Source: Sulfurifustis variabilis (GTDB lineage: Bacteria > Pseudomonadota > Gammaproteobacteria > Acidiferrobacterales > Sulfurifustaceae). From it: a stretch of 64,000 nt of DNA. The notes beneath the pieces are model-generated. The model was not told where the DNA came from. It saw nothing but the letters and a program-made list of their open reading frames with translations, and made no database searches. The DNA lies in the NCBI RefSeq assembly GCF_002355415.1, contig NZ_AP014936.1, positions 1,798,001-1,862,000 on the forward strand, given 5' to 3'. This document shows positions 822 through 12,849 of this stretch, piece after piece (position 1 is the first letter of the stretch; every line of letters begins with the position of its first letter). The position numbers and the translations under genes are program-made.

Positions 822-1817
822 TCAATTCGCCAGTCGGCCGACCGCGGCGAGGTTCGCGGGGATCCGCCTCGCCGGGGATCGTCCCGCCAGCAGCGCATCG
901 AAATACTCGATCGTCTGCGTCAGACCCTCGCGCAGTCCGGTTTTCGGCTCCCAGTCCAGGAGGGTGCGCGCGGCCGTGATATCGGGGCGCCGGCGGCGCG
1001 GGTCGTCGAAGGGGAGGGGGCGATGCACGACGGGAGAGCGGGAATTCGTGAGATCGAGAATCTGCTCGGCGAGCGCGCGCATGGAGCACTCCTCGGGATT
1101 GCCGAGGTTCACGGGCCCCGTCACCTCGTCCGGCGTGTCGACGAATCGCACCAAAGCCTCGATCAGGTCGCCGGCGTAGCAGAAGGAGCGCGTCTGGGTG
1201 CCGTCGCCGTAGAGCGTGATCGCTTCGTTGTTGAGCGCCTGGACGATGAAGTTGGAGACGACGCGGCCGTCCCCCTGCTGCATGTACGGGCCGTAGGTGT
1301 TGAATATCCGCGCGACCTTGATGCGCAGGCGGTGCTGCCGGTGGTAGTTGAAGAAAAGCGTCTCGGCGCAGCGCTTGCCCTCGTCGTAGCACGAGCGCGG
1401 GCCGATGGGATTCACGTGCCCCCAGTAGTCCTCCGTCTGCGGATGGATCTCGGGATCGCCGTAGACCTCGCTGGTCGAGGCCTGCAGTACGCGTGCCCTC
1501 AGGCGCTTGGCGAGCCCGAGGACGTTGATCGCGCCGTGCACGCTCGTTTTCACGGTCTGTACGGGGTCGTGCTGGTAATGGATCGGGCTCGCGGGGCAGG
1601 CGAGGTTGTAAATCGCGTCGACCTCGACGTACAGCGGAAAACAGATGTCGTGTCGCAGGACCTCGAAGTTCGGGTCGTTCAGGAATTCCGCGATGTTGCG
1701 CCGCGTGCCCGTGTAGAAGTTATCCACGCAGAGGACTTCATGGCCTTCGGCGAGCAGGCGCGCGCAAAGATGCCTCCCCAGGAATCCCGCCCCGCCCGTC
1801 ACCAGCACCCGGCTCAT
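822..1817 (-). CDS. NAD-dependent epimerase/decarboxylase, UDP-glucuronate decarboxylase (UXS) type
   Basis: About 331 residues with a Rossmann GGAGFLG motif at the N-terminus and the extended-SDR catalytic set: STSEVYGDP, then YDEGKRCAE supplying Tyr and Lys. The segments [10 protein letters not shown] and FNTYGPYM are typical of bacterial UXS, which converts UDP-glucuronate to UDP-xylose through a 4-keto intermediate. A longer reading to 1862 exists, but the ATG at 1817 starts directly at the Rossmann strand ([12 protein letters not shown]) and has GGGAAAG upstream, so I chose it. It lies 132 bases beyond the HAD-HerA fusion gene on the same strand. A close dTDP-glucose 4,6-dehydratase relative is the main alternative. 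Confidence 0.9.
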
Positions 1818-1950
1818 CGTTCTTTCCCTGCCGCGTCGCGTTCCTTCCGTCTCCGCCATCAAGCGGGCCGGCTCGCTTCTGTGTCAATGAGGGGCATTAC
1901 CCGCAAAGCCGCGAAGCGGGTACGGCGAAGCAAAAAGAACGGACAACGGG

Positions 1951-3657
1951 TTACGGAGGCGCGCTGTAACGCTTCTCGATCTGCTGCCGTACCAGTCGGC
2001 GCGTCTCGCGAGGCGGCGTATCGGGCATCCGCTCGATGCGCGAGATGTCGTCGGCGAGCGACGGGTCCTTGATCGCCTCCCTGAACCAGCGGGAATAGTC
2101 GCCGCGCCGCAGGTGGTGTATCCAGGTGTCGTCGTCCACGCCCTCGGCCGACTGCAGGAAAATCGCAAGGTTCTGCGCGCGCAGGTTCAGGCGCCCGTCC
2201 GGGCCGCGGAAGTAGAAGCTTCGGTCCGGCGGGAGCTCGCCTTCGGCGTACTTGCGGGTGTGCCGCCGGCGCTCCGTCCGCGGCGGGATGCTGACGAAGC
2301 GCAGCGGGGCGGCGCGCGAGTTCACCGGCCAGTCGAGGGCATCGCCGGTCGCCAGCGGGGCGGGATCCACGCGAGGCGGACGCACGCCGGCCGTTTCTCC
2401 GAACTGGCGCAGCGTCTCGGCCGGCGAATGGCCGATGACGAGGACACGATCGACGACGGCCAGCGCATCGTGCGCGACGTGGTCCGGGTGGACCGTGATG
2501 AAGACCAGCCCGTGCGCGGCCGGACCGAGTATCTCTCCGGCCCGCAAATTGTGCTCGGGCAGCATGTGATGGGCCTCGTCGATCACGATCCAGTGCGGGC
2601 GCCCGGTCTGCGCGCGCAGCGCCAGAAGCTTCGAAAAGACCGTCTCGAAGGTTCGGGGGCGGTCCTCGATCGAAACGCCGAGGAGGTTGATCACCACGCT
2701 CTGGTCCGGTTCCTCGAGCAGCTGCAGCGCCTGGTCCAAGGCCGGCGCCTGGCCGGCGTCGCCGAAGCTCACGATGCCGAGGTTCTGGTAGTCGCCCTCG
2801 GGATCGATGATGCAATACTGGTAGCCGCGCTCCGCGATGCGCTCGAGAATGCCGGTGGTGAACGTCGACTTGCCGCTTCCCGAGGTGCCGGCCACGAGGA
2901 CGTTGGGTGCGTAGGGATCGAGGGTGAGCAGCCGTTCGCCGGCGTGGCCGAGCGGGATCGCGTGACGCGAAAGCGCGGGCCCCAGCTCCTCGAGGTCGGA
3001 GGCGAGCAGCCGCTCGACGAGCTCGACGACGCCCGCGCCGTGGTCCGCGCGCGTCACCCAGTCCGCCTGCGCCCTGAGCGACGGGAGGGCGTTCGCCACC
3101 GCGACCGCGCATTCGCACAGCGAGAGAAACGCGTGGTCGTTTTCGGCATCGCCCACGCCGACGACGTTGTGCGCGGAGAGCCGGAGCTCGTCGAGCGCGG
3201 CCTGCAGCCCCGTCGCCTTGTTGACGCCGGAAGGGAGGGCCATGACGGCTCCCCTGTTGAAGATGACCTGCCATTCCAGCCCGAGCTCGCGGATCGCCTC
3301 CAGCACCGCGGTCTCGTGCGGCTGCCAGGTGGCGACGATCGCGCGGCCGACCGCCAGCGGGTCGACGCCATGGGCGCGCAGGCGCTCGACGAACCCGGGC
3401 GGCGGCGCCTGGCCGAGCGGAATCTCCTCCCGCGTCGCAGGCCGGTAGAGCAGGGCGCCGTTCTCCGCGACGACGCGGTCGAAGAGATCCAGGCGGGGAA
3501 AGGCGTGCTCGAGGTCCGGCAGCTGCCGGCCCGTCACCAGCAGGAGCCGGCGGCCCGAACGGCTCAGCTCTTCGAGCGACGCGACGACGCGGTCGTCGAC
3601 GTGGCCGTGGCGGGCGAGGGTGCCGTCGTAGTCGCAGGCGAGGGCGAGGTATCGCAT
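1951..3657 (-). CDS. HAD-family hydrolase fused to a HerA/DUF87-like P-loop ATPase
   Basis: A 568-residue two-domain protein. Residues 1-215 are a HAD class IIB hydrolase: DYDGT motif with Asp9 and Asp11, VTGR near 41-44, and GVGDAENDHAFL near 167-178 as the metal-binding motif. From about 235 a HerA/VirB4-like ATPase follows: Walker A GTSGSGKST with Lys263, IIDPEGDYQNL, and Walker B IVIDEAHH near 357-364. The C-terminal roughly 130 residues are charged and not assigned. It begins only 16 bases after the ligD stop on the same strand, so co-transcription with ligD is likely. HerA relatives translocate or resect DNA; the HAD half suggests phosphoester hydrolysis, possibly of a small molecule. 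The actual substrate is unknown. Both active sites look intact. Confidence 0.85.
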   Translation of the reverse strand: MRYLALACDYDGTLARHGHVDDRVVASLEELSRSGRRLLLVTGRQLPDLEHAFPRLDLFDRVVAENGALLYRPATREEIPLGQAPPPGFVERLRAHGVDPLAVGRAIVATWQPHETAVLEAIRELGLEWQVIFNRGAVMALPSGVNKATGLQAALDELRLSAHNVVGVGDAENDHAFLSLCECAVAVANALPSLRAQADWVTRADHGAGVVELVERLLASDLEELGPALSRHAIPLGHAGERLLTLDPYAPNVLVAGTSGSGKSTFTTGILERIAERGYQYCIIDPEGDYQNLGIVSFGDAGQAPALDQALQLLEEPDQSVVINLLGVSIEDRPRTFETVFSKLLALRAQTGRPHWIVIDEAHHMLPEHNLRAGEILGPAAHGLVFITVHPDHVAHDALAVVDRVLVIGHSPAETLRQFGETAGVRPPRVDPAPLATGDALDWPVNSRAAPLRFVSIPPRTERRRHTRKYAEGELPPDRSFYFRGPDGRLNLRAQNLAIFLQSAEGVDDDTWIHHLRRGDYSRWFREAIKDPSLADDISRIERMPDTPPRETRRLVRQQIEKRYSAPP

Positions 3658-3673: not shown

Positions 3674-6121
3674 TTAAAGCATTCCCATCTCGCGCTTCAT
3701 CCGGGCGGTGATCGCGCGGCGGGCCGCGTCGAAGTCCTCCCACGGATCGCGCTTCAGCGCGCGCAGGCGCTCGTAGACGTTGCGCACGTTGTACCGGTCG
3801 GAACGCAGCTCGCTGTCGAGCTCCTCCCACGCGAGCGGGACCGCCACCGGCGCGTGCGGCTTTGCCCGGGTCGAGTAATTCGTCACGGCGGTCGCGCCGC
3901 GGGCGTTGCGCAGGTAATCGATGAATACCTTCTGCTTGCGCGCCGACAGCGCGAGGCGCGACGTGTAGCGCCCCGGATTCCGGCGCACGATGTCGTCGGC
4001 GAGCGCCTTCGAGAATGCCTTCGCTTCGTCCCAGTCGTGACGGCGCGCGATCGGCACGACGACGTGCAGGCCCTTTCCGCCGGTCGTGCGCACGAACCCG
4101 GCGAGACCGAGGTCCAGCACGCGCGCGTACACCAGGGCGACCGCCTCCAGCACGGCGTCCCACCCGAGCGAGGGATCCGGGTCGATATCGAAGATGAGGC
4201 GATCGGGTTGATCGGGCCGGTCGATGCGCGATCCCCATACGTGGATCTCCAGCACGCCCATCTGCACCAGCGCCAGAACGCCCTGCAGCGAATCGACGGC
4301 GAGATACGTCTCCACGTCCTTGCCGCCGTGCTCCGCGATCGGCACGCGCCGGAGCTCCTCGGGCATGCCCCGCGTCGCGTGCTTCTGCCAGAAACACTGC
4401 TTGTGCGGGCCTTCGGGGCAGCGCAAGAGCGTGAGCGGGCGACGCACGACGTGAGGCAGCATCCACTCGCCGACCGCCTCGTAATAAAGAGCGAGCTCCT
4501 CCTTGGTCACTCCCTGCTCCGGGTAGAGCACCTTGTCGGCGTTGGTGATCCGTACGCGCCTGCCGTTCGCCGGCGGGGGACCGGAGGGGGCGAGGGCCTG
4601 CGGGAGCTCGCGCACGACGTCCCGCGGCCGCTTGTCCTCCCGCACGCCCTGGTAGGACGCCTGGCGTACGTACCCTTCGTGCGTCCATCCCGCGAACTCG
4701 ACGTCGACGACCGTCTGCGGCCGCACCCAGTGCGCGCCCTTGCGCGCCTCGCGCGGCAGCGGCGACGCGAACGGCGGTTCCTTCGTTTCGAGCTCGCCGA
4801 ACCGCGCTCGCAGCTCGCGCAGCGTCCTGTCGTCGAAGCCCGTCCCGACCCGCCCGCAGTAACGCAGCCCGGCATCCGACTCGTAGAGCCCGAGCAGCAG
4901 GGCGCCGAGGCCGGCGCGCCCGCCGGCGGGATCGGTGTAGCCGCCGACCACGAACTCCTGGCGCAATCGGCACTTGGCCTTGAGCCAGTCGGTCGTGCGG
5001 CCGTTTCGGTAGGGCGCGTCGATCCGCTTGGATACCACGCCTTCGAGCCCGAAGGCGCACGCCTGCTGGTAGAACACGTCGCCCTTGCCGCGGACGTGGT
5101 CGCTCACGCGCAGCTGCGTGCCGCCCGAGTGCGCCGACAGCAGGGTCGCCAGCCGCTGCTTGCGCGCGGTCAGCGGCTCGCCGCGCAGGTCGCGGCCGTT
5201 CCACCACGGGAGATCGAAAAGGTAGTAGATGAGATCCTGGTCGCGCCCGTCGGAAAGGGCGGACTGCAGGGCGGGGAAGCTCGTGCGCCCGTCCGCGGAC
5301 AGCGCGACGACCTCGCCGTCGAGCCAGCCGTCGGCGAGCCCGGGCAGGCGCTCGATCGCCCGCGCGATCGCCGCCATGCGCTTCGTCAGGTCGTTCCCGT
5401 TGCGGCTGTAAAGCCGCGCGCGGCCGTCCTCGAGCCGGCAGAGTACGCGATAGCCGTCGTACTTGATCTCGTGCAGCCACTCCGGCCCGGACGGCGGTCG
5501 CTCCACGAGGGTCGCCAGCTCCGGCGCGAAGCGGCGCGGCGGCGCCGGACTGGCGCGCGGCCGGGCCCGCTGCTCCGCGACATCCTCCAGCGTGCGGCCC
5601 GTCTGGACGCTGTACGGCATCGCGTCCGTGATCTCGATGCTGCTCGCGAACTCGTCGTCGCGCTTGATGAGCAGCCAGTTCTCCTTGTCGCCGGGGCTGC
5701 CGGAACGCACCAGGCTGAAGCCGCCCCGGAGCTTCTCGCCTTCCAGCTCGAAGCGCAGGCGTCCGCGGCGGTAGCCTTCCTCGGGATCGCCTTCGGGCTT
5801 CCACACGCCGCGGTCCCACACCAGCACCGGTCCGGCGCCGTACTGCTTGCGGGGGATCACGCCCTCGAACTTGCCGTACTCGATCGGGTGATCCTCGACG
5901 TGCACCGCCAGTCGCTTCTCGCGCGGGTCGAGACTCGGGCCCCGCGGCACCGCCCAGCTCTTGAGCGTCCCGTTGAGCTCCAGCCGCAGATCGTAGTGAA
6001 GGCGGCGGGCACCGTGCTTCTGGATCACGTAGCGAAACCGCCGGCGGGACACGGCCCGCCCGCCGCTGGGCTCCGGCGTCCGTTCGAAGTTCCGCTTGCG
6101 ACGATAGACGTCGAGCTTCAT
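3674..6121 (-). CDS. ligD: ATP-dependent DNA ligase LigD (3'-phosphoesterase, ligase and polymerase domains)
   Basis: An 815-residue LigD in phosphoesterase-ligase-polymerase order. Residues 1-165 are the 3'-phosphoesterase (LHYDLRLE, HVEDHPIEYG). The ligase starts near 200, with KYDGYR giving the AMP-accepting Lys220, and motif V-like WLKAKC near 379-384. After a linker, residues 520-810 form the primase-type polymerase, with LIFDIDPDP near 642-650 and TGGKGLHVVVP near 680-690. With Ku it performs non-homologous end joining of DNA double-strand breaks. ku lies 103 bases upstream on the same strand; the HAD-HerA fusion follows almost without a gap. Length and all key residues match full-size LigD. 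Confidence 0.97.
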   Translation of the reverse strand: MKLDVYRRKRNFERTPEPSGGRAVSRRRFRYVIQKHGARRLHYDLRLELNGTLKSWAVPRGPSLDPREKRLAVHVEDHPIEYGKFEGVIPRKQYGAGPVLVWDRGVWKPEGDPEEGYRRGRLRFELEGEKLRGGFSLVRSGSPGDKENWLLIKRDDEFASSIEITDAMPYSVQTGRTLEDVAEQRARPRASPAPPRRFAPELATLVERPPSGPEWLHEIKYDGYRVLCRLEDGRARLYSRNGNDLTKRMAAIARAIERLPGLADGWLDGEVVALSADGRTSFPALQSALSDGRDQDLIYYLFDLPWWNGRDLRGEPLTARKQRLATLLSAHSGGTQLRVSDHVRGKGDVFYQQACAFGLEGVVSKRIDAPYRNGRTTDWLKAKCRLRQEFVVGGYTDPAGGRAGLGALLLGLYESDAGLRYCGRVGTGFDDRTLRELRARFGELETKEPPFASPLPREARKGAHWVRPQTVVDVEFAGWTHEGYVRQASYQGVREDKRPRDVVRELPQALAPSGPPPANGRRVRITNADKVLYPEQGVTKEELALYYEAVGEWMLPHVVRRPLTLLRCPEGPHKQCFWQKHATRGMPEELRRVPIAEHGGKDVETYLAVDSLQGVLALVQMGVLEIHVWGSRIDRPDQPDRLIFDIDPDPSLGWDAVLEAVALVYARVLDLGLAGFVRTTGGKGLHVVVPIARRHDWDEAKAFSKALADDIVRRNPGRYTSRLALSARKQKVFIDYLRNARGATAVTNYSTRAKPHAPVAVPLAWEELDSELRSDRYNVRNVYERLRALKRDPWEDFDAARRAITARMKREMGML

Positions 6122-6224: not shown

Positions 6225-7124
6225 CTACGCCCGCCTGCGCGTGCTTCGCTTGCGCGTCTGGGTGGAGCTCTTCTTGCGGGTCCGCGCGCGCGCCGCCGGA
6301 GGACGTTCTTTCTCCTTCTCCCTTTCCTTCTCCTCGATCGAGCGCTTCAGCAGGGTCATGAAGTCGATGACCTGCGCGCCGCGCGGCGCCTCCTCCTTGG
6401 TCGGCTCCAGGAGCTCGAGCGTCTTCCCGGCCTCGACCTTCTCCTGAACGATCCTGAGCAGATCGTCGCGGTACTCGTCGCGATACTTTTCCGGTTCCCA
6501 GCGGGCGGCCATGTCCTCGACCAGTCGCTCCGCCATCTCGATCTCCTTCTTCGTGATGCGCAGCGCCGCGAGGTCCTTGCCCGGGACCTTGAACTCCTTC
6601 AGGTCGCGCAGCTCGTACGGGTACCGGAGCAGGTTCAGCACCAGCATGTCGCCGAGGGGCGCGAGCAGGGCGAGGTGCTGGCGGTTGCGCAGCACCACCT
6701 GCGCCACACCCGCGCGGCCCGTGCGCGTGAGCGTCTCGCGCAGCAGGGCGTAGCCCTTCTCGCCCGTGCGCTGCACGGGCTCCAGGTAGTACGGTTGGTC
6801 GTAGTAGATGAAGGGGATTTCGTCCGCCTTCACGAAGTCGATGATCTCGACCGTCTGGGTCGCCTTGACGTTGGCGCGGCGAAACTCCTCCTCGCCGAGG
6901 ACGACATACTGGTCCTTGTCGTACTCGTAGCCCTTGACGATCTGGTCCCAGGGGACCTCTTCGCCCGTGGCCTTGTTGTAGCGCTTGTACCCGACCGGCG
7001 ACATGTTCCGCTGATCGAGCATGGTGAAGCTCAGCTCCTTCTCGCGCTGCTCGGCCGGATACAGGGCGACCGGAATGCTGACGAGGCCGAAGCTGATGGC
7101 GCCTTTCCAGATTGTGCGGGGCAT
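6225..7124 (-). CDS. ku: Ku protein, NHEJ DNA end-binding
   Basis: A 299-residue bacterial Ku that opens with the family signature MPRTIWKGAISFGLV. It carries the Ku core (YEYDKDQYVVLGEEE, YYLEPVQRTGEKGYALL) and ends in a Lys/Arg-rich tail of about 40 residues that in other Ku proteins binds DNA and recruits LigD. The reading frame extends upstream to 7220, but the ATG at 7124 has AAGGGAG eight bases before it and begins at the conserved N-terminus. It is followed on the same strand by ligD, forming a standard two-component NHEJ module. The upstream 214 bases are a divergent promoter region shared with the rhodopsin-transducer homologue. Confidence 0.97.
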   Translation of the reverse strand: MPRTIWKGAISFGLVSIPVALYPAEQREKELSFTMLDQRNMSPVGYKRYNKATGEEVPWDQIVKGYEYDKDQYVVLGEEEFRRANVKATQTVEIIDFVKADEIPFIYYDQPYYLEPVQRTGEKGYALLRETLTRTGRAGVAQVVLRNRQHLALLAPLGDMLVLNLLRYPYELRDLKEFKVPGKDLAALRITKKEIEMAERLVEDMAARWEPEKYRDEYRDDLLRIVQEKVEAGKTLELLEPTKEEAPRGAQVIDFMTLLKRSIEEKEREKEKERPPAARARTRKKSSTQTRKRSTRRRA

Positions 7125-7338
7125 TCGTGCATCTCCCTTGCGCGCAGGTGCAACGAATCGGACCCCCGGTAAGAGCGATAGTTTCAAAAACGGCTTCGTT
7201 CTCAGGGGATTCCCGAGCACCGCCGAGGCGAATGCGCCTGCGGGCGGGGAGTCAAACGATCAGCACCAGGGACGGTTCGCGCCGGGCGGGCGCACGACGG
7301 GACCGGCGACGACACGCCAACGAGGAGGGCGCACAGCC

Positions 7339-7716
7339 ATGGAGCAACCGATCGGCAAGACGCGCTGGGCCATCGCGGAAGGCTACATCCCGAGCTGGAG
7401 CAACGGGCCCGATCCGGAGATGACGAGCCACGAAACGGCGTGCCTCCTGAACGCGGGCGACCGCGACGCGCAGGTGCGGATAACGGTCTACTTCGCCGAT
7501 CGCGAACCGGCGGGGCCTTATCGGGTGACCGTCGCCGCGCGGCGCACGCTGCACGTGCGCTTCAACGAGCTCAAGGACCCCGAGCCGATCCCTCTCGATA
7601 CGGATTACGCGAGCGTGATCGAGTCAGACGTGCCGATCGTGGTGCAGCACACGCGGCTGGACTCGCGGCAGGCGGAGCTGGCGCTGCTCAGCACGATGGC
7701 GTTTCCGGCCGGTTGA
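7339..7716 (+). CDS. Sensory rhodopsin transducer (ASRT) family protein
   Basis: A 125-residue soluble protein closely resembling the Anabaena sensory rhodopsin transducer family. Diagnostic stretches are AIAEGYIPSWSNGP, ETACLLNAGD, YFADREPAGPYR, ARRTLHVRFNEL and VPIVVQHTRLDSRQAE near the C-terminus. In Anabaena the protein is a tetramer that binds sensory rhodopsin and has been proposed to contact DNA. No rhodopsin gene is visible in this window. Homologues in non-rhodopsin bacteria are also known, so light transduction is not established here. The ATG has a GAGG-type site upstream. Its last 93 bases overlap the 3' end of the opposing dehydrogenase gene. Confidence 0.9.
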   Translation: MEQPIGKTRWAIAEGYIPSWSNGPDPEMTSHETACLLNAGDRDAQVRITVYFADREPAGPYRVTVAARRTLHVRFNELKDPEPIPLDTDYASVIESDVPIVVQHTRLDSRQAELALLSTMAFPAG

Positions 7717-8703
7717 GTTTCGCCCGGCGAATCCCAGCGCGGCGGCGAGCAGGGCGAGGGCGCCCATCCCCAGTGCCGTCCGGTTCCGGCTCGCCAGCAC
7801 CTGCCAGCTGCGGTCGCGCGCCCGCGTGTCGAACCGGCCATGGGCGCCGTGGTCGCCGGGGACCGGCGCGTCGAGGTTATCGGGCCGGCCCGTCCGCTCG
7901 GGCTCGTCGGTGATCTGTCCTTCGTAGCCCATGCGTGCGAGCAGGCGATCGAGCAGGCCGGGAGCGATCTTCTGGGCGAGTATGGTCTTGACCGCCGGAA
8001 AGCCGACCCACACCTCCCGGCGCGGGTGCATGGCGGCCCGCACGATGGCTTCCGCCGCCACCTCGGGCTGGAAGATCGGCGGAACGGGCTGCGCGCGCCG
8101 GGGCATGTGCGTGCGCGCCCAGTCGAACTGGGGCGTGTTGAAGGCGGACAGCTGTACCATGGTGAGGCGCACGCGGCTCCTGTCGTGCAACAGCTCCGAT
8201 CGCAGCGAGTCGGTGAAGCCGCGCACCGCGAACTTCGCGCCGCAGTAGGCCGACTGGAGCGGGATCGCGCGGTAGGCGAGCGCCGAGCCGACCTGCACGA
8301 TCGTCCCCCGGTTGCGGCCACGCATGCGCTTGAGCGCCGCCAGCGTCCCGTGGACCGTGCCGAGGTAGGTCACCTCGGTGGCGCGCCTGTATTCCTCAGG
8401 CGCGATGTCCACGAACGGCGAAAAGATCGTCGCCATCGCGTTGTTGACCCAGACATCGATCGGCCCGAGCTCGCGCTCGACCGTCTCCGCGGCCGCCTCC
8501 ACCTGCCCGAAGTCCGCCACGTCGGCGGGAACGACGAGCGCGCGCCCGCCGTCCGCCTCGATCTCCCGTTTGGCCGCCTCGAGCCCGTCCCGACCCCGGG
8601 CGAGCAGGCCGACCCGCGCCCCCGCGCGTCCGAACGCGCGCGCCGTCGCCCGACCGATGCCGGCCGAGGCCCCTGTCACCAGCACTACTCGATCCCTGAG
8701 CAT
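7624..8703 (-). CDS. Short-chain dehydrogenase/reductase with C-terminal extension
   Basis: A classical SDR: TGASAGIG cofactor loop near residue 10, NNAM replacing the NNAG motif, Ser in QVGSALAYR, and YCGAK supplying catalytic Tyr and Lys. The core ends near residue 270. It is followed by a charged linker, a hydrophobic segment (LGMGALALLAAALGFAG) that could be a membrane anchor, and then a basic tail that is antisense to the end of the ASRT gene. Such SDRs with an extra C-terminal segment are common in proteobacteria, usually of unknown substrate. The final 30 or so residues, being encoded opposite a conserved gene, are probably not functionally constrained. Confidence 0.88.
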   Translation of the reverse strand: MLRDRVVLVTGASAGIGRATARAFGRAGARVGLLARGRDGLEAAKREIEADGGRALVVPADVADFGQVEAAAETVERELGPIDVWVNNAMATIFSPFVDIAPEEYRRATEVTYLGTVHGTLAALKRMRGRNRGTIVQVGSALAYRAIPLQSAYCGAKFAVRGFTDSLRSELLHDRSRVRLTMVQLSAFNTPQFDWARTHMPRRAQPVPPIFQPEVAAEAIVRAAMHPRREVWVGFPAVKTILAQKIAPGLLDRLLARMGYEGQITDEPERTGRPDNLDAPVPGDHGAHGRFDTRARDRSWQVLASRNRTALGMGALALLAAALGFAGRNSTGRKRHRAEQRQLRLPRVQPRVLHHDRHV

Positions 8704-8827: not shown

Positions 8828-10288
8828 CTAGACGATCAGCCGGTTCCATCCGGCATAGCGCCCCCGAACCGCTCCGCGAGGCAGGCTGAGCGCCACGAGA
8901 GCCAGGCCCGCGACCACGCTGCCGACCGTCCCGGCCGCGCTGGCGCCATCCAGCACCCAGGGTGCCGCGACCAGCCAGACACCGAACGCCGCATTGATGA
9001 ACCGCAGCGGCCGCGCCACCTCCGCGAAGGCGGAGAAAGCGACCACGATGACCAGCGACCCGACGAGGTGGTCGCTGTTCGCCATGGCGCCCACGGCATC
9101 GAGCGTGAGACGCGTGAACATGAGCCAGACGCCGATCAGGGCGCCGAGCACCAGCGTCCACGGGTAGTTCACCCCGCCGCTCACCATGTCGCGAAGCATG
9201 GCGGGGAGGGCGCCGTCGAGCTCCGAACGCTCCATTCGACGCCCGCCTTCCATGACGCCGCCGTGCAGGAAGTTGCTCCAGAACGACCCGCGCCGCCGCC
9301 GGACGTCGACGAGGAACTGCCCCATCGCGACGAGCTCGTCGAGCGAATAGGGGATCATCACGACCATCGCGAGCGCCTGGACGAGACAGAGCGTGCACCA
9401 GGTTCCGATCACAATCGGTTGAATGATGATGAAAATGATGCTGACCGCCCCGAGCGGGACGACCAGCAGTCCGAACATGGCCACCATCCACGGCATGGTG
9501 CGCCAGCGGCGCCGGCTCCCCATCGCTCCGGACAGCGCTTCCAGCATGTAGGCGGTCGCGCCGAGGCCCGCGTCGGCGACGGGCCACGCCCGGGAGACGT
9601 CCGAGGTGATGATGCGTACCGTACCGTCGCCGAAGAACGGGTCCCACACCCGGTCCGTGTGGCCGAGCTGGTACGCCGCGAGGTAGCGCGCGATGAAGAA
9701 GCCGACGAGCGCCATCGCGATGATGGGAATGCGCTGGAGCCAGTCCGAGGGGGAGTAGTCCCAGCCCGGCGGGATATCGGGGCCGAGCGCCATCGCCTTC
9801 ATGCTCATGCCGGGCATCATGGGGACGAGCACGGAGAACGTGATCGCCAGCGTGCCGACCAGCGTGTCGTTCGCGTACGCGCCGGGGCTCGGCGTCCAGA
9901 AGAGGAGCGGGGCGAAGAGCAGCCAGATGCCGACGAACGCCGCCGCCCATTGGGCGAACCACGCCCAGCGCCGCGTGAGGGAAAGCGCGCCGAAAACCAC
10001 GAGGGCGACGCCGCTGAGGACGTCGCTCCACGCCATGGCGAGATTGCGGACCTCGGGCAAAGGGAGGCCGCGCTCGGCCGTCACCGCCAGCACCGGGCTG
10101 TCCGCCGGGAAGGTCATCGACAGATAGCCGAACGTGACGGGGCTCGCGACGAGCCAGAACCCGAGCGCGATGTTGGCAAAGTGCGCCCACAGGGTCATCA
10201 GCCGGTGCGCGTGCATTTCCTGCTCGTGCTCGGCGATCACCCGGGCGCCGGGTACGGCGGGCTGGCGGGGAGCGGACCGGCCTTCCAT
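8828..10288 (-). CDS. Membrane protein with SPW repeats flanking a VKOR-like domain
   Basis: About 486 residues and some ten hydrophobic segments. The N-terminal part has an SPW-type repeat ([20 protein letters not shown]), and a second occurs near the C-terminus ([19 protein letters not shown]). Between them is a vitamin K epoxide reductase-like region with a CTLC dithiol inside [20 protein letters not shown] homologues reoxidise DsbA-like proteins using quinone, so a role in envelope disulfide formation is plausible. The reading frame extends to 10336, but the ATG at 10288 has AAGGAGG seven bases upstream. It is divergent from the phosphoketolase gene across a 173-base promoter region. No DsbA-like partner is visible nearby. 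Confidence 0.82.
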
Positions 10289-10461
10289 GGCGAGACCTCC
10301 TTGAGCACCGATTAGAACACAGCAGCCGATTCCCAAAAGTACGCTTCGAGCGCGGGCATGCGCCGAACTTTTCTGAGCAAATCCGGGGGCGTCTGGTCAA
10401 AAGCTCATCCCCGAGCGACGAACGCGGCCGCCCCCCTCGCGGCCGCGACAAGGAGGTTACG

Positions 10462-12849
10462 ATGCAGCAGGCTGCCCGCCAGGCACAACCGGAGCACACG
10501 CTGTCCCCCGAGGAGCTGCGCAAGATGAACGCCTACTGGCGCGCCGCGAATTACCTCTCGGTGGGGCAGATCTACCTCCTCGACAATCCACTTCTGCGGG
10601 AGCCGCTGCGCCCCGAGCACGTCAAGCCGCGGTTGCTCGGGCACTGGGGGACCGCGCCCGGCCTGAGCTTCATCTACGTGCATCTCAACCGCATCATCAA
10701 GGCGCGCGACGTGGACATGTTCTTCGTGACCGGTCCCGGCCACGGCGCCCCCGCGCTCTTCGCCAACACCTGGCTCGAGGGGAGCTACAGCGAGTTCTAT
10801 ACCGACGTGCCGCTGAACGGCGAGGGCATGCGCCGGCTCTTCAGGCAATTCTCCTTTCCGGGCGGCGTGCCGAGCCACACGGCGGCGGAACTACCCGGCT
10901 CGATCAACGAAGGCGGGGAGCTCGGCTACTCGCTGGTGCACGCCTACGGCGCCGCGTTCGACAACCCGGATCTCGTGGTCGCGTGCGTCATCGGCGACGG
11001 CGAGGCCGAGACCGGCCCGCTCGCCGCCTCGTGGCACTCGAACAAGTTCCTGAATCCTGCGCGCGACGGCGCCGTCCTGCCGATCCTGCATCTCAACGGC
11101 TACAAGATCGCGAGCCCGACCGTGCTCGCGCGCATTCCGCACGAGGAGCTGGAGAGCCTGCTCGTCGGCTACGGATACACGCCGTACTTCGTGGAAGGCG
11201 ACGCCCCCGAACGCATGCACCAGCAGATGGCGGCCACGCTCGATCGCATCTTCGACGACATCGCCGCGATCCAGCGGCGCGCGCGCCGCGAGGGCGCGAA
11301 GGAGCGGCCGCGCTGGCCGATGCTGGTCCTGCGCTCGCCCAAGGGCTGGACCGGGCCGAAAGAGGTCGAGGGCCAGAAGGTCGAGGGATTCTGGCGCTCG
11401 CACCAGGTCCCGTTCGGCGAGGTGCGCACGCGCCCCGAGCACCTGCAGCTCCTCGAGCAATGGCTCAAGAGCTACCGGCCCGAGGAGCTGTTCGACGAGA
11501 ACGGCGCCCCGCGCGCGGAGCTCCTCGATCTCGCGCCCGCGGGTCCGCGCCGCATGGGCGCGAACCCGCACGCGAACGGCGGGCTGCTGCTTCGCGAGCT
11601 CGATCTGCCCGACTTTCGCGATTACGAGGTGGAGGTGCCGCGACCCGGCGGTGCGCTCAACGAGGCGACGCGCACCATGGGCGTGCTGCTGCGCGACGTG
11701 ATGAAGCGCAACGCGGCCGCGTGCAACTTCCGCGTGATGGGGCCGGACGAAACCGGCTCCAACCGGCTGAGCGCGCTCTTCGAGACGACCGGTCGCGCCT
11801 GGATGGCGGAGCGGTTGCCGGAGGACCTGGGCCTGTCGCCCGACGGGCGCGTGATGGAGGTGCTGTCGGAGCACCTCTGCCAGGGCTGGCTCGAGGGTTA
11901 CCTGATCACCGGCCGCCACGGCGTGTTCTCCTGCTACGAGGCGTTCATCCACATCGTCGACTCGATGTTCAACCAGCACGCGAAGTGGCTGCACGCGATG
12001 AAGGAGACGCCGTGGCGTCGCCCCATCGCCTCGCTCAATTACCTGCTCACGTCGCACGTCTGGCGCCAGGACCACAACGGCTTCTCGCACCAGGACCCGG
12101 GGTTCATCGACGTCGTGCTCAACAAGAAGGCCGACATCGTCCGCATCTACTTCCCGCCCGACGCGAACACGCTGCTCTGCGTCACGGACAGGTGCCTGCG
12201 CTCACGGAATCTCGTGAACGTCATCGTCGAGGGCAAGCAGATGGCTCCGCAATGGCTCGACATGGATTCGGCCATCAAGCACAGCACGGCGGGCATCGGC
12301 ATCTGGGAGTGGGCGAGCAACGACCACGACGGCGCGCCGGACGTCGTCATGGCGTGCGCCGGCGACGTGCCGACGCTCGAGACGCTCGCCGCCGTCGACG
12401 TGCTGCGCCAGCTCGTGCCGAGCCTGAAGATCCGGGTGATCAACGTCGTCGACCTCATGACCCTGCAGCCGAAGGAGGAGCATCCGCACGGCCTCGGCGA
12501 CCGGGAGTTCGATTCGCTGTTCACGACCGACAAGCCGGTCATCTTCGCGTATCACGGCTATCCCTGGCTCATACACCGGCTGACGTACCGTCGGACCAAT
12601 CACAAGAACCTGCACGTGCGCGGCTACAAGGAGGAGGGGACCACCACCACGCCGTTCGACATGACGGTGCGGAACGACATCGACCGCTTCCATCTCGCGG
12701 GCGACGTGATCGATCGCGTGCCCGGCCTCGGTTACCGCGCCGCCCATATCAAGCAGCACCTGCGCGACAAGCTGATCGAGCACGAGATGTACATCGTCGA
12801 GCACGGCCAGGATCTGCCCGAGGTTCGCGAGTGGAAGTGGCCGTACTAG
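10462..12849 (+). CDS. xfp: Phosphoketolase (xylulose-5-phosphate/fructose-6-phosphate)
   Basis: A 795-residue thiamine-diphosphate enzyme of the usual family length. It shows [37 protein letters not shown], the ThDP-binding GDGEAETG with a downstream Asn in SNKFLN, and the pyrimidine-domain signature [11 protein letters not shown]. It splits xylulose 5-phosphate or fructose 6-phosphate with phosphate into acetyl phosphate and a shorter sugar phosphate, and is cytosolic. The start has AAGGAGG followed by TTACG. It stands alone with no acetate kinase or phosphotransacetylase beside it; the 306-base gap after it separates it from the MerR operon. Confidence 0.97.

Follow-up and report, generated by a model that had tools for sequence, protein, structure and literature searches.

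ATPases of the HerA type are known to pump DNA and also to serve as scaffolds in anti-phage complexes. The HerA translocase possesses a HAS barrel and pairs with NurA. Among small-molecule phosphatases of the HAD superfamily, the solved relatives of the PH1421/TA0175 type (TIGR01487) and of the Cof/sugar-phosphatase type are stand-alone proteins. The T. tenax (Thermoproteus tenax) protein OrfY (4cso), which its PDB entry labels a transcription factor, is a DUF5752 protein of two repeats. In the same organism, a co-expressed glycosyltransferase activates the TPS/TPP fusion in a complex, showing that complexes of glycosyltransferases and trehalose enzymes exist; the paper on this complex does not name OrfY (PMC3634074).

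We analyzed a stretch of 64,000 nucleotides from Sulfurifustis variabilis, hereafter the window, in which a single gene joins domains related to all three of these protein types.

The three-domain protein and its relatives

The gene runs from 3657 to 1951 on the minus strand, starts with ATG, encodes 568 amino acids and is present as a single copy in the source genome. The preliminary description had given the same coordinates and length and had read the product as an HAD phosphatase joined to a HerA-like ATPase. Both domains were indeed found, together with all of the residues that it had named (Asp9, Asp11 and GDAEND at 169-174; Lys263 and the Walker B motif DEAH at 360-363), but a third domain at residues ~439-568 had been overlooked. 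Its gene order of ku, ligD and then the fusion was also correct, since Pfam and NCBIfam verify LigD and Ku, and the gap between the end of ligD (3674) and the ATG of the fusion is 16 bp. The features are as follows, all on the minus strand.

822..1862, minus: UXS-like protein (UDP-glucuronate decarboxylase-like NAD-dependent epimerase), downstream of the fusion; adjoins the fusion in locus L028 too
1951..3657, minus: HAD-HerA-OrfY/DUF5752-like three-domain protein (ORF, Pfam, GTDB relatives, alignment, AlphaFold model)
1954..2343, minus: OrfY/DUF5752-like domain, residues 439-568 (DUF5752 profile, hhalign, Foldseek)
2344..2976, minus: HerA/DUF87-type P-loop ATPase core without HAS barrel, residues 228-438 (Pfam DUF87, 4d2i)
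2569..2580, minus: Walker B DEAH, residues 360-363 (D360, E361 and H363 each in 70/70 sequences)
2866..2889, minus: Walker A GTSGSGKS, residues 257-264 (G257, G262 and K263 each 70/70)
2992..3657, minus: HAD-IIB phosphatase domain, residues 1-222 (Pfam Hydrolase_3, 2.8e-23; TIGR01484; 1wr8)
3136..3153, minus: HAD motif IV GDAEND, residues 169-174 (G169, D170, N173 and D174 each 70/70)
3619..3633, minus: HAD motif I DYDGT, residues 9-13 (D9, D11 and T13 each 70/70)
3674..6121, minus: LigD in PE-Lig-Pol order, upstream neighbor, outside the conserved unit (Pfam and NCBIfam)
6225..7220, minus: Ku, preceding ligD, outside the conserved unit (Pfam and NCBIfam)
7624..8703, minus: SDR oxidoreductase; its counterpart precedes the fusion in L028, there without ku and ligD

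Further along the window, 8828-10336 (minus) encodes VKOR and two SPW stretches in one protein (Pfam), an unusual membrane fusion, and 10462-12849 (plus) holds a phosphoketolase-like ORF recognized by eye. Near other fusions, L028 has a stand-alone SPW-like protein, and an annotated phosphoketolase lies close to an Agrobacterium fusion (L022, 13944-16340).

A genome scan detected relatives of the fusion in at least 556 stretches of GTDB genomes, the best 80 of these being 49-62% identical over essentially the full length, and their phyla include Cyanobacteriota, Planctomycetota, Acidobacteriota, Nitrospirota, Chloroflexota, Myxococcota, Actinomycetota and Pseudomonadota. An alignment of 70 sequences drawn from many phyla shows the three domains in the same order throughout, and the motif residues do not vary. 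The fusion is thus a real protein, neither a chance ORF nor a misassembly, and the invariance suggests that both the HAD and ATPase sites are under selection for catalysis. The architecture, built from known domains, is apparently undescribed: a search of papers available without subscription turned up an account of neither the fusion nor DUF5752, so a prior mention is possible.

The HAD domain belongs to subclass IIB, as indicated by its TIGR01484 score (81.9 bits, cut-off 41.8), motifs and fold, and Lys147 is likewise invariant (70/70). In a structural comparison, residues 1-224 best matched 1wr8 (PH1421; Z 26.7), deposited as a phosphoglycolate phosphatase, while the phosphoglycolate phosphatase equivalog TIGR01487 was the best NCBIfam hit at 85.4 bits, below its cut-off of 122.75. 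Profiles and structures thus place the domain nearest to the archaeal phosphoglycolate-phosphatase and sugar-phosphatase families. It shares with the PH1421/TA0175 and Cof types the full HAD core, the C2B-type cap, DxD, Lys147 and GDxxND, but, unlike their solved stand-alone members, it shares a chain with two further domains, an ATPase and one resembling OrfY. OtsB (Trehalose_PPase, PF02358) also falls within the HAD-IIB superfamily but represents a different HAD family, and neither the window protein nor the HAD-only copies described below had PF02358 in their Pfam results.

The central domain is a member of the HerA/DUF87 ATPases (PF01935, 31.6 bits against 23.2; 2.3e-7) with invariant catalytic residues, and residues ~230-465 of the AlphaFold model of the fusion (pLDDT 91) matched the HerA cores 8xav (Z 20.7), 4d2i (Z 20.6) and 9x1m, with Z values of 20.4-20.7. 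With the HerA translocases (4d2i, HerA-NurA, SIR2-HerA), it has in common the RecA-like core and the motifs GxxGxGKS, DPEGDY and DEAH, at Z ~20 over ~220 residues. Since the alignment of model residues 232-465 with 4d2i (119-469) begins only at HerA residue 119, and the spacing between the HAD domain and the core is ~10 residues, the fusion lacks a HAS barrel and carries the HAD domain in that position. It also differs at the strand after Walker B, reading TVHP where HerA carries TQRP, and, whereas the HerA translocase works with NurA, the window protein's own genome has none; NurA was not found in G000, G008 or G012 and was missing from 21 of the 30 genomes searched. Since the model aligns with HerA, we put profile matches of the P-loop with ABC transporters and APS kinases down to a general likeness of Walker A motifs.

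As for the C-terminal domain, 24 of 32 family members matched the DUF5752 profile at a permissive E-value limit (best 8e-5), and hhalign gave an E-value of 2.3e-5. When the domain was folded alone, Foldseek returned OrfY (4cso) as the sole credible match (probability 0.98; next 0.06). The sequence profile of the domain matched 4cso at 0.0011, and that of DUF5752 proper at 1.5e-25. Formal membership in DUF5752 (PF19027) was not reached, the domain scoring 16.3 bits against a gathering threshold of 23 with a single repeat. These comparisons support homology, with the domain as a divergent half (one repeat) of DUF5752/OrfY, fused here, in contrast to the two repeats of the T. tenax protein.

In a quick tree, the HAD domain of the window clustered with those of a cyanobacterium and a Nitrosomonas and not with its own family (L028 and G008), with moderate support, which suggests horizontal transfer. 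Additional copies occur on plasmid records; a phage or plasmid element was nevertheless rejected, as no full-length phage homologue was found and the plasmid copies lie on replicons typed as non-mobilizable. On a plasmid of Sinorhizobium meliloti Ak57, a gene annotated as ftsZ lies shortly downstream of the fusion (L018, 10171-11211).

At most loci the fusion is solitary with varied neighbors. According to a simple ORF caller, a same-strand gene lies within 50 bp upstream at 12 of 75 loci and downstream at 9 of 75, and a conserved operon partner was rejected on account of these few close neighbors and the varied gene content. A Pfam tally of the 175 nearest genes gave histidine kinase, PAS and response-regulator domains as the only repeated ones. 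A stress island (Dps, hemerythrin, rubredoxin, CBS, PRC) was also considered and set aside as too weak, since such genes turned up at a handful of loci in 987 kb, and the control DNA of the carrier genomes (573 kb) had none.

Links to sugar and trehalose metabolism

Two genomes, G281 and G279, carry HAD-only copies upstream of genes for GT4, amylo-alpha-1,6-glucosidase (GDE) and OtsA on one strand, in the following rows.

L172, 6949-12973: HAD-only, GT4, amylo-1,6-glucosidase, OtsA, in a genome without recognizable OtsB
L173, 7310-13319: the same gene row, in a genome without recognizable OtsB

Each of these genomes has one OtsA, and no Trehalose_PPase match was found anywhere in either, whereas OtsA and OtsB are adjacent in G180 of the same genus. 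The HAD-only gene of such rows is thus a candidate non-orthologous trehalose-6-phosphate phosphatase. The full fusion adjoins the GT4-GDE-OtsA set as well, in divergent orientation in two Aminobacter plasmids and also in G816; by our own rough count of ~13 lineages, the chance of two such lineages is roughly 0.0008. In the quick tree, HAD-only forms are nested within the fusions twice, in rhizobia (with the Aminobacter fusions) and in cyanobacteria, and no ATPase remnant was found beside the HAD-only copies, indicating that the HAD domain is the part retained alone. The second, independent HAD-only form, on a plasmid of Nostoc sp. C052 (L023, 8001-8666), lies near zwf and a cardiolipin-synthase-like gene.

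The C-terminal domain points to the same metabolism, since DUF5752 proper adjoins a gene for a TreT-like glycosyltransferase in all seven loci, with OtsB and OtsA matches at 4 of the 7. However, the trehalose gene set lies near only a few alphaproteobacterial fusions, and Glyco_transf_20 gave no match above the family cut-off in 24 of the 53 genomes examined, which rules out trehalose-6-phosphate as the general substrate. The genome of the window already carries OtsA and OtsB elsewhere.

The ku-ligD neighborhood and other explanations

The position behind ku and ligD had led to the proposal that the fusion could supply a motor and a phosphoester-processing activity to NHEJ. Spelled out further, the HerA-like motor would translocate along DNA ends, from which the HAD domain would strip end phosphates or 3'-phosphoglycolate for Ku-LigD. 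Beyond the 16-bp gap in the window, this could draw on the ku gene ~2.7 kb from the fusion on the other strand in L083, on a ku remnant adjoining the fusion in G008, and on the Pseudomonadota sample, in which Ku occurs in all 11 match-bearing genomes (10 with full fusions and one HAD-only) versus 102 of 397 overall, or by genus in 4/4 versus 51/228 (p 0.003, kinship ignored). In the survey of ku and ligD adjacency that the proposal called for, covering 88 loci and flanking DNA that reached 10 kb where the contigs were long enough, ku was near the fusion only in the window and L083, and ligD only in the window. A Ku match was present in 30 of the 53 carrier genomes and absent from 23, among them all ten cyanobacterial carriers, so that across these loci and carriers there is no conserved linkage of the kind expected for an NHEJ operon component. 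Nine of the 11 Pseudomonadota genomes come from one family, and none of the Ku hits listed for the 11, the window aside, lies near the fusion; this co-occurrence probably reflects shared lifestyle or ancestry and does not prove a link. Within the window's own family, no LigD was found in G008, and its sole Ku match is a dead stub (L104, 11561-11770) with a stop at the sixth codon, ending ~50 bp before a fusion that is intact. In L028 (G012), SDR, SPW, the fusion and the UXS-type epimerase are arranged as in the window with neither ku nor ligD, both of which sit on contigs other than that of the fusion. The decay in G008 and the gene order in L028 thus indicate that ku-ligD came or went here while the fusion stayed, and the order ku-ligD-fusion seen in the window is specific to its lineage, a local accident. 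Together with the missing NurA in G000, G008 and G012, these results make a role in NHEJ highly improbable. The alternative offered in the preliminary description, an HAD domain acting on a sugar phosphate in an accidental neighborhood, held as regards the accident, and its sugar-phosphate part is the one that we favor by inference.

Two further explanations were weighed against the same material. HerA assemblies act as sensors that trigger SIR2 or DUF4297 effectors, and the fusion might be a single-gene defense or signaling system in which the HerA-type ATPase triggers the phosphatase as an effector to deplete a phosphometabolite. The resemblance of the core to HerA of anti-phage complexes (8xav), its matches to the PADLOC mad8 and HerA models, and the solitary, horizontally spread gene would suit such a system, yet ~50-60% identity between phyla is more than a defense gene would usually keep, defense genes are not conspicuous among the neighbors, phages have no full-length homologue, and HAD-only copies are kept beside metabolic genes; we consider this explanation unlikely. 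A somewhat stronger contender, although still a doubtful one, is a metabolite-repair phosphatase of the phosphoglycolate type that is switched by ATP; trehalose would have no part in it, and the HAD-only clusters would be a later reuse. It agrees with PH1421 as the best structural match, with TIGR01487 at the top of the NCBIfam hits, even if below the cut-off, and with the frequency of the fusion in cyanobacteria without OtsA, but it leaves both the OrfY/DUF5752-like domain and the repeated GT4-GDE-OtsA neighborhood unexplained.

A proposed role for the fusion

The best-supported reading, to which we give about an even chance, is a sugar-phosphate phosphatase under the control of an ATPase/OrfY regulatory module. 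The fusion would be an enzyme complete in itself that moves horizontally between environmental bacteria. Its HAD-IIB domain would hydrolyze a phosphorylated small metabolite, a sugar phosphate or glycosyl phosphate being the likeliest, and its HAD-only derivatives plausibly occupy the OtsB slot beside OtsA. The HerA-type core and the OrfY/DUF5752-like domain would be an added module for regulation or assembly. By binding and hydrolyzing ATP, probably as a ring or other oligomer, this module may govern the phosphatase or link it with a partner glycosyltransferase complex. As judged from the sequences, such a role of the ATPase appears to fit better than DNA translocation, because its motifs are intact, it was repeatedly lost where the HAD domain was not, and the HAS barrel is absent.

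More tentatively, and with some leaning toward doubt, the HerA/FtsK-type core may have left DNA translocation to serve a sugar-phosphate phosphatase as its ATP-driven regulator or as a ring for its assembly. The OrfY-type domain would then be the adaptor that joins it to a complex of trehalose enzymes or glycosyltransferases, in a stress-metabolism module spread over many bacterial phyla. The analysis does away with a DNA-repair annotation that was inviting but misleading, and the HAD-only clusters offer a ready test system in two otsA-bearing genomes without a recognizable otsB. If the proposal is true, the fusion would extend the HerA superfamily to metabolic control.
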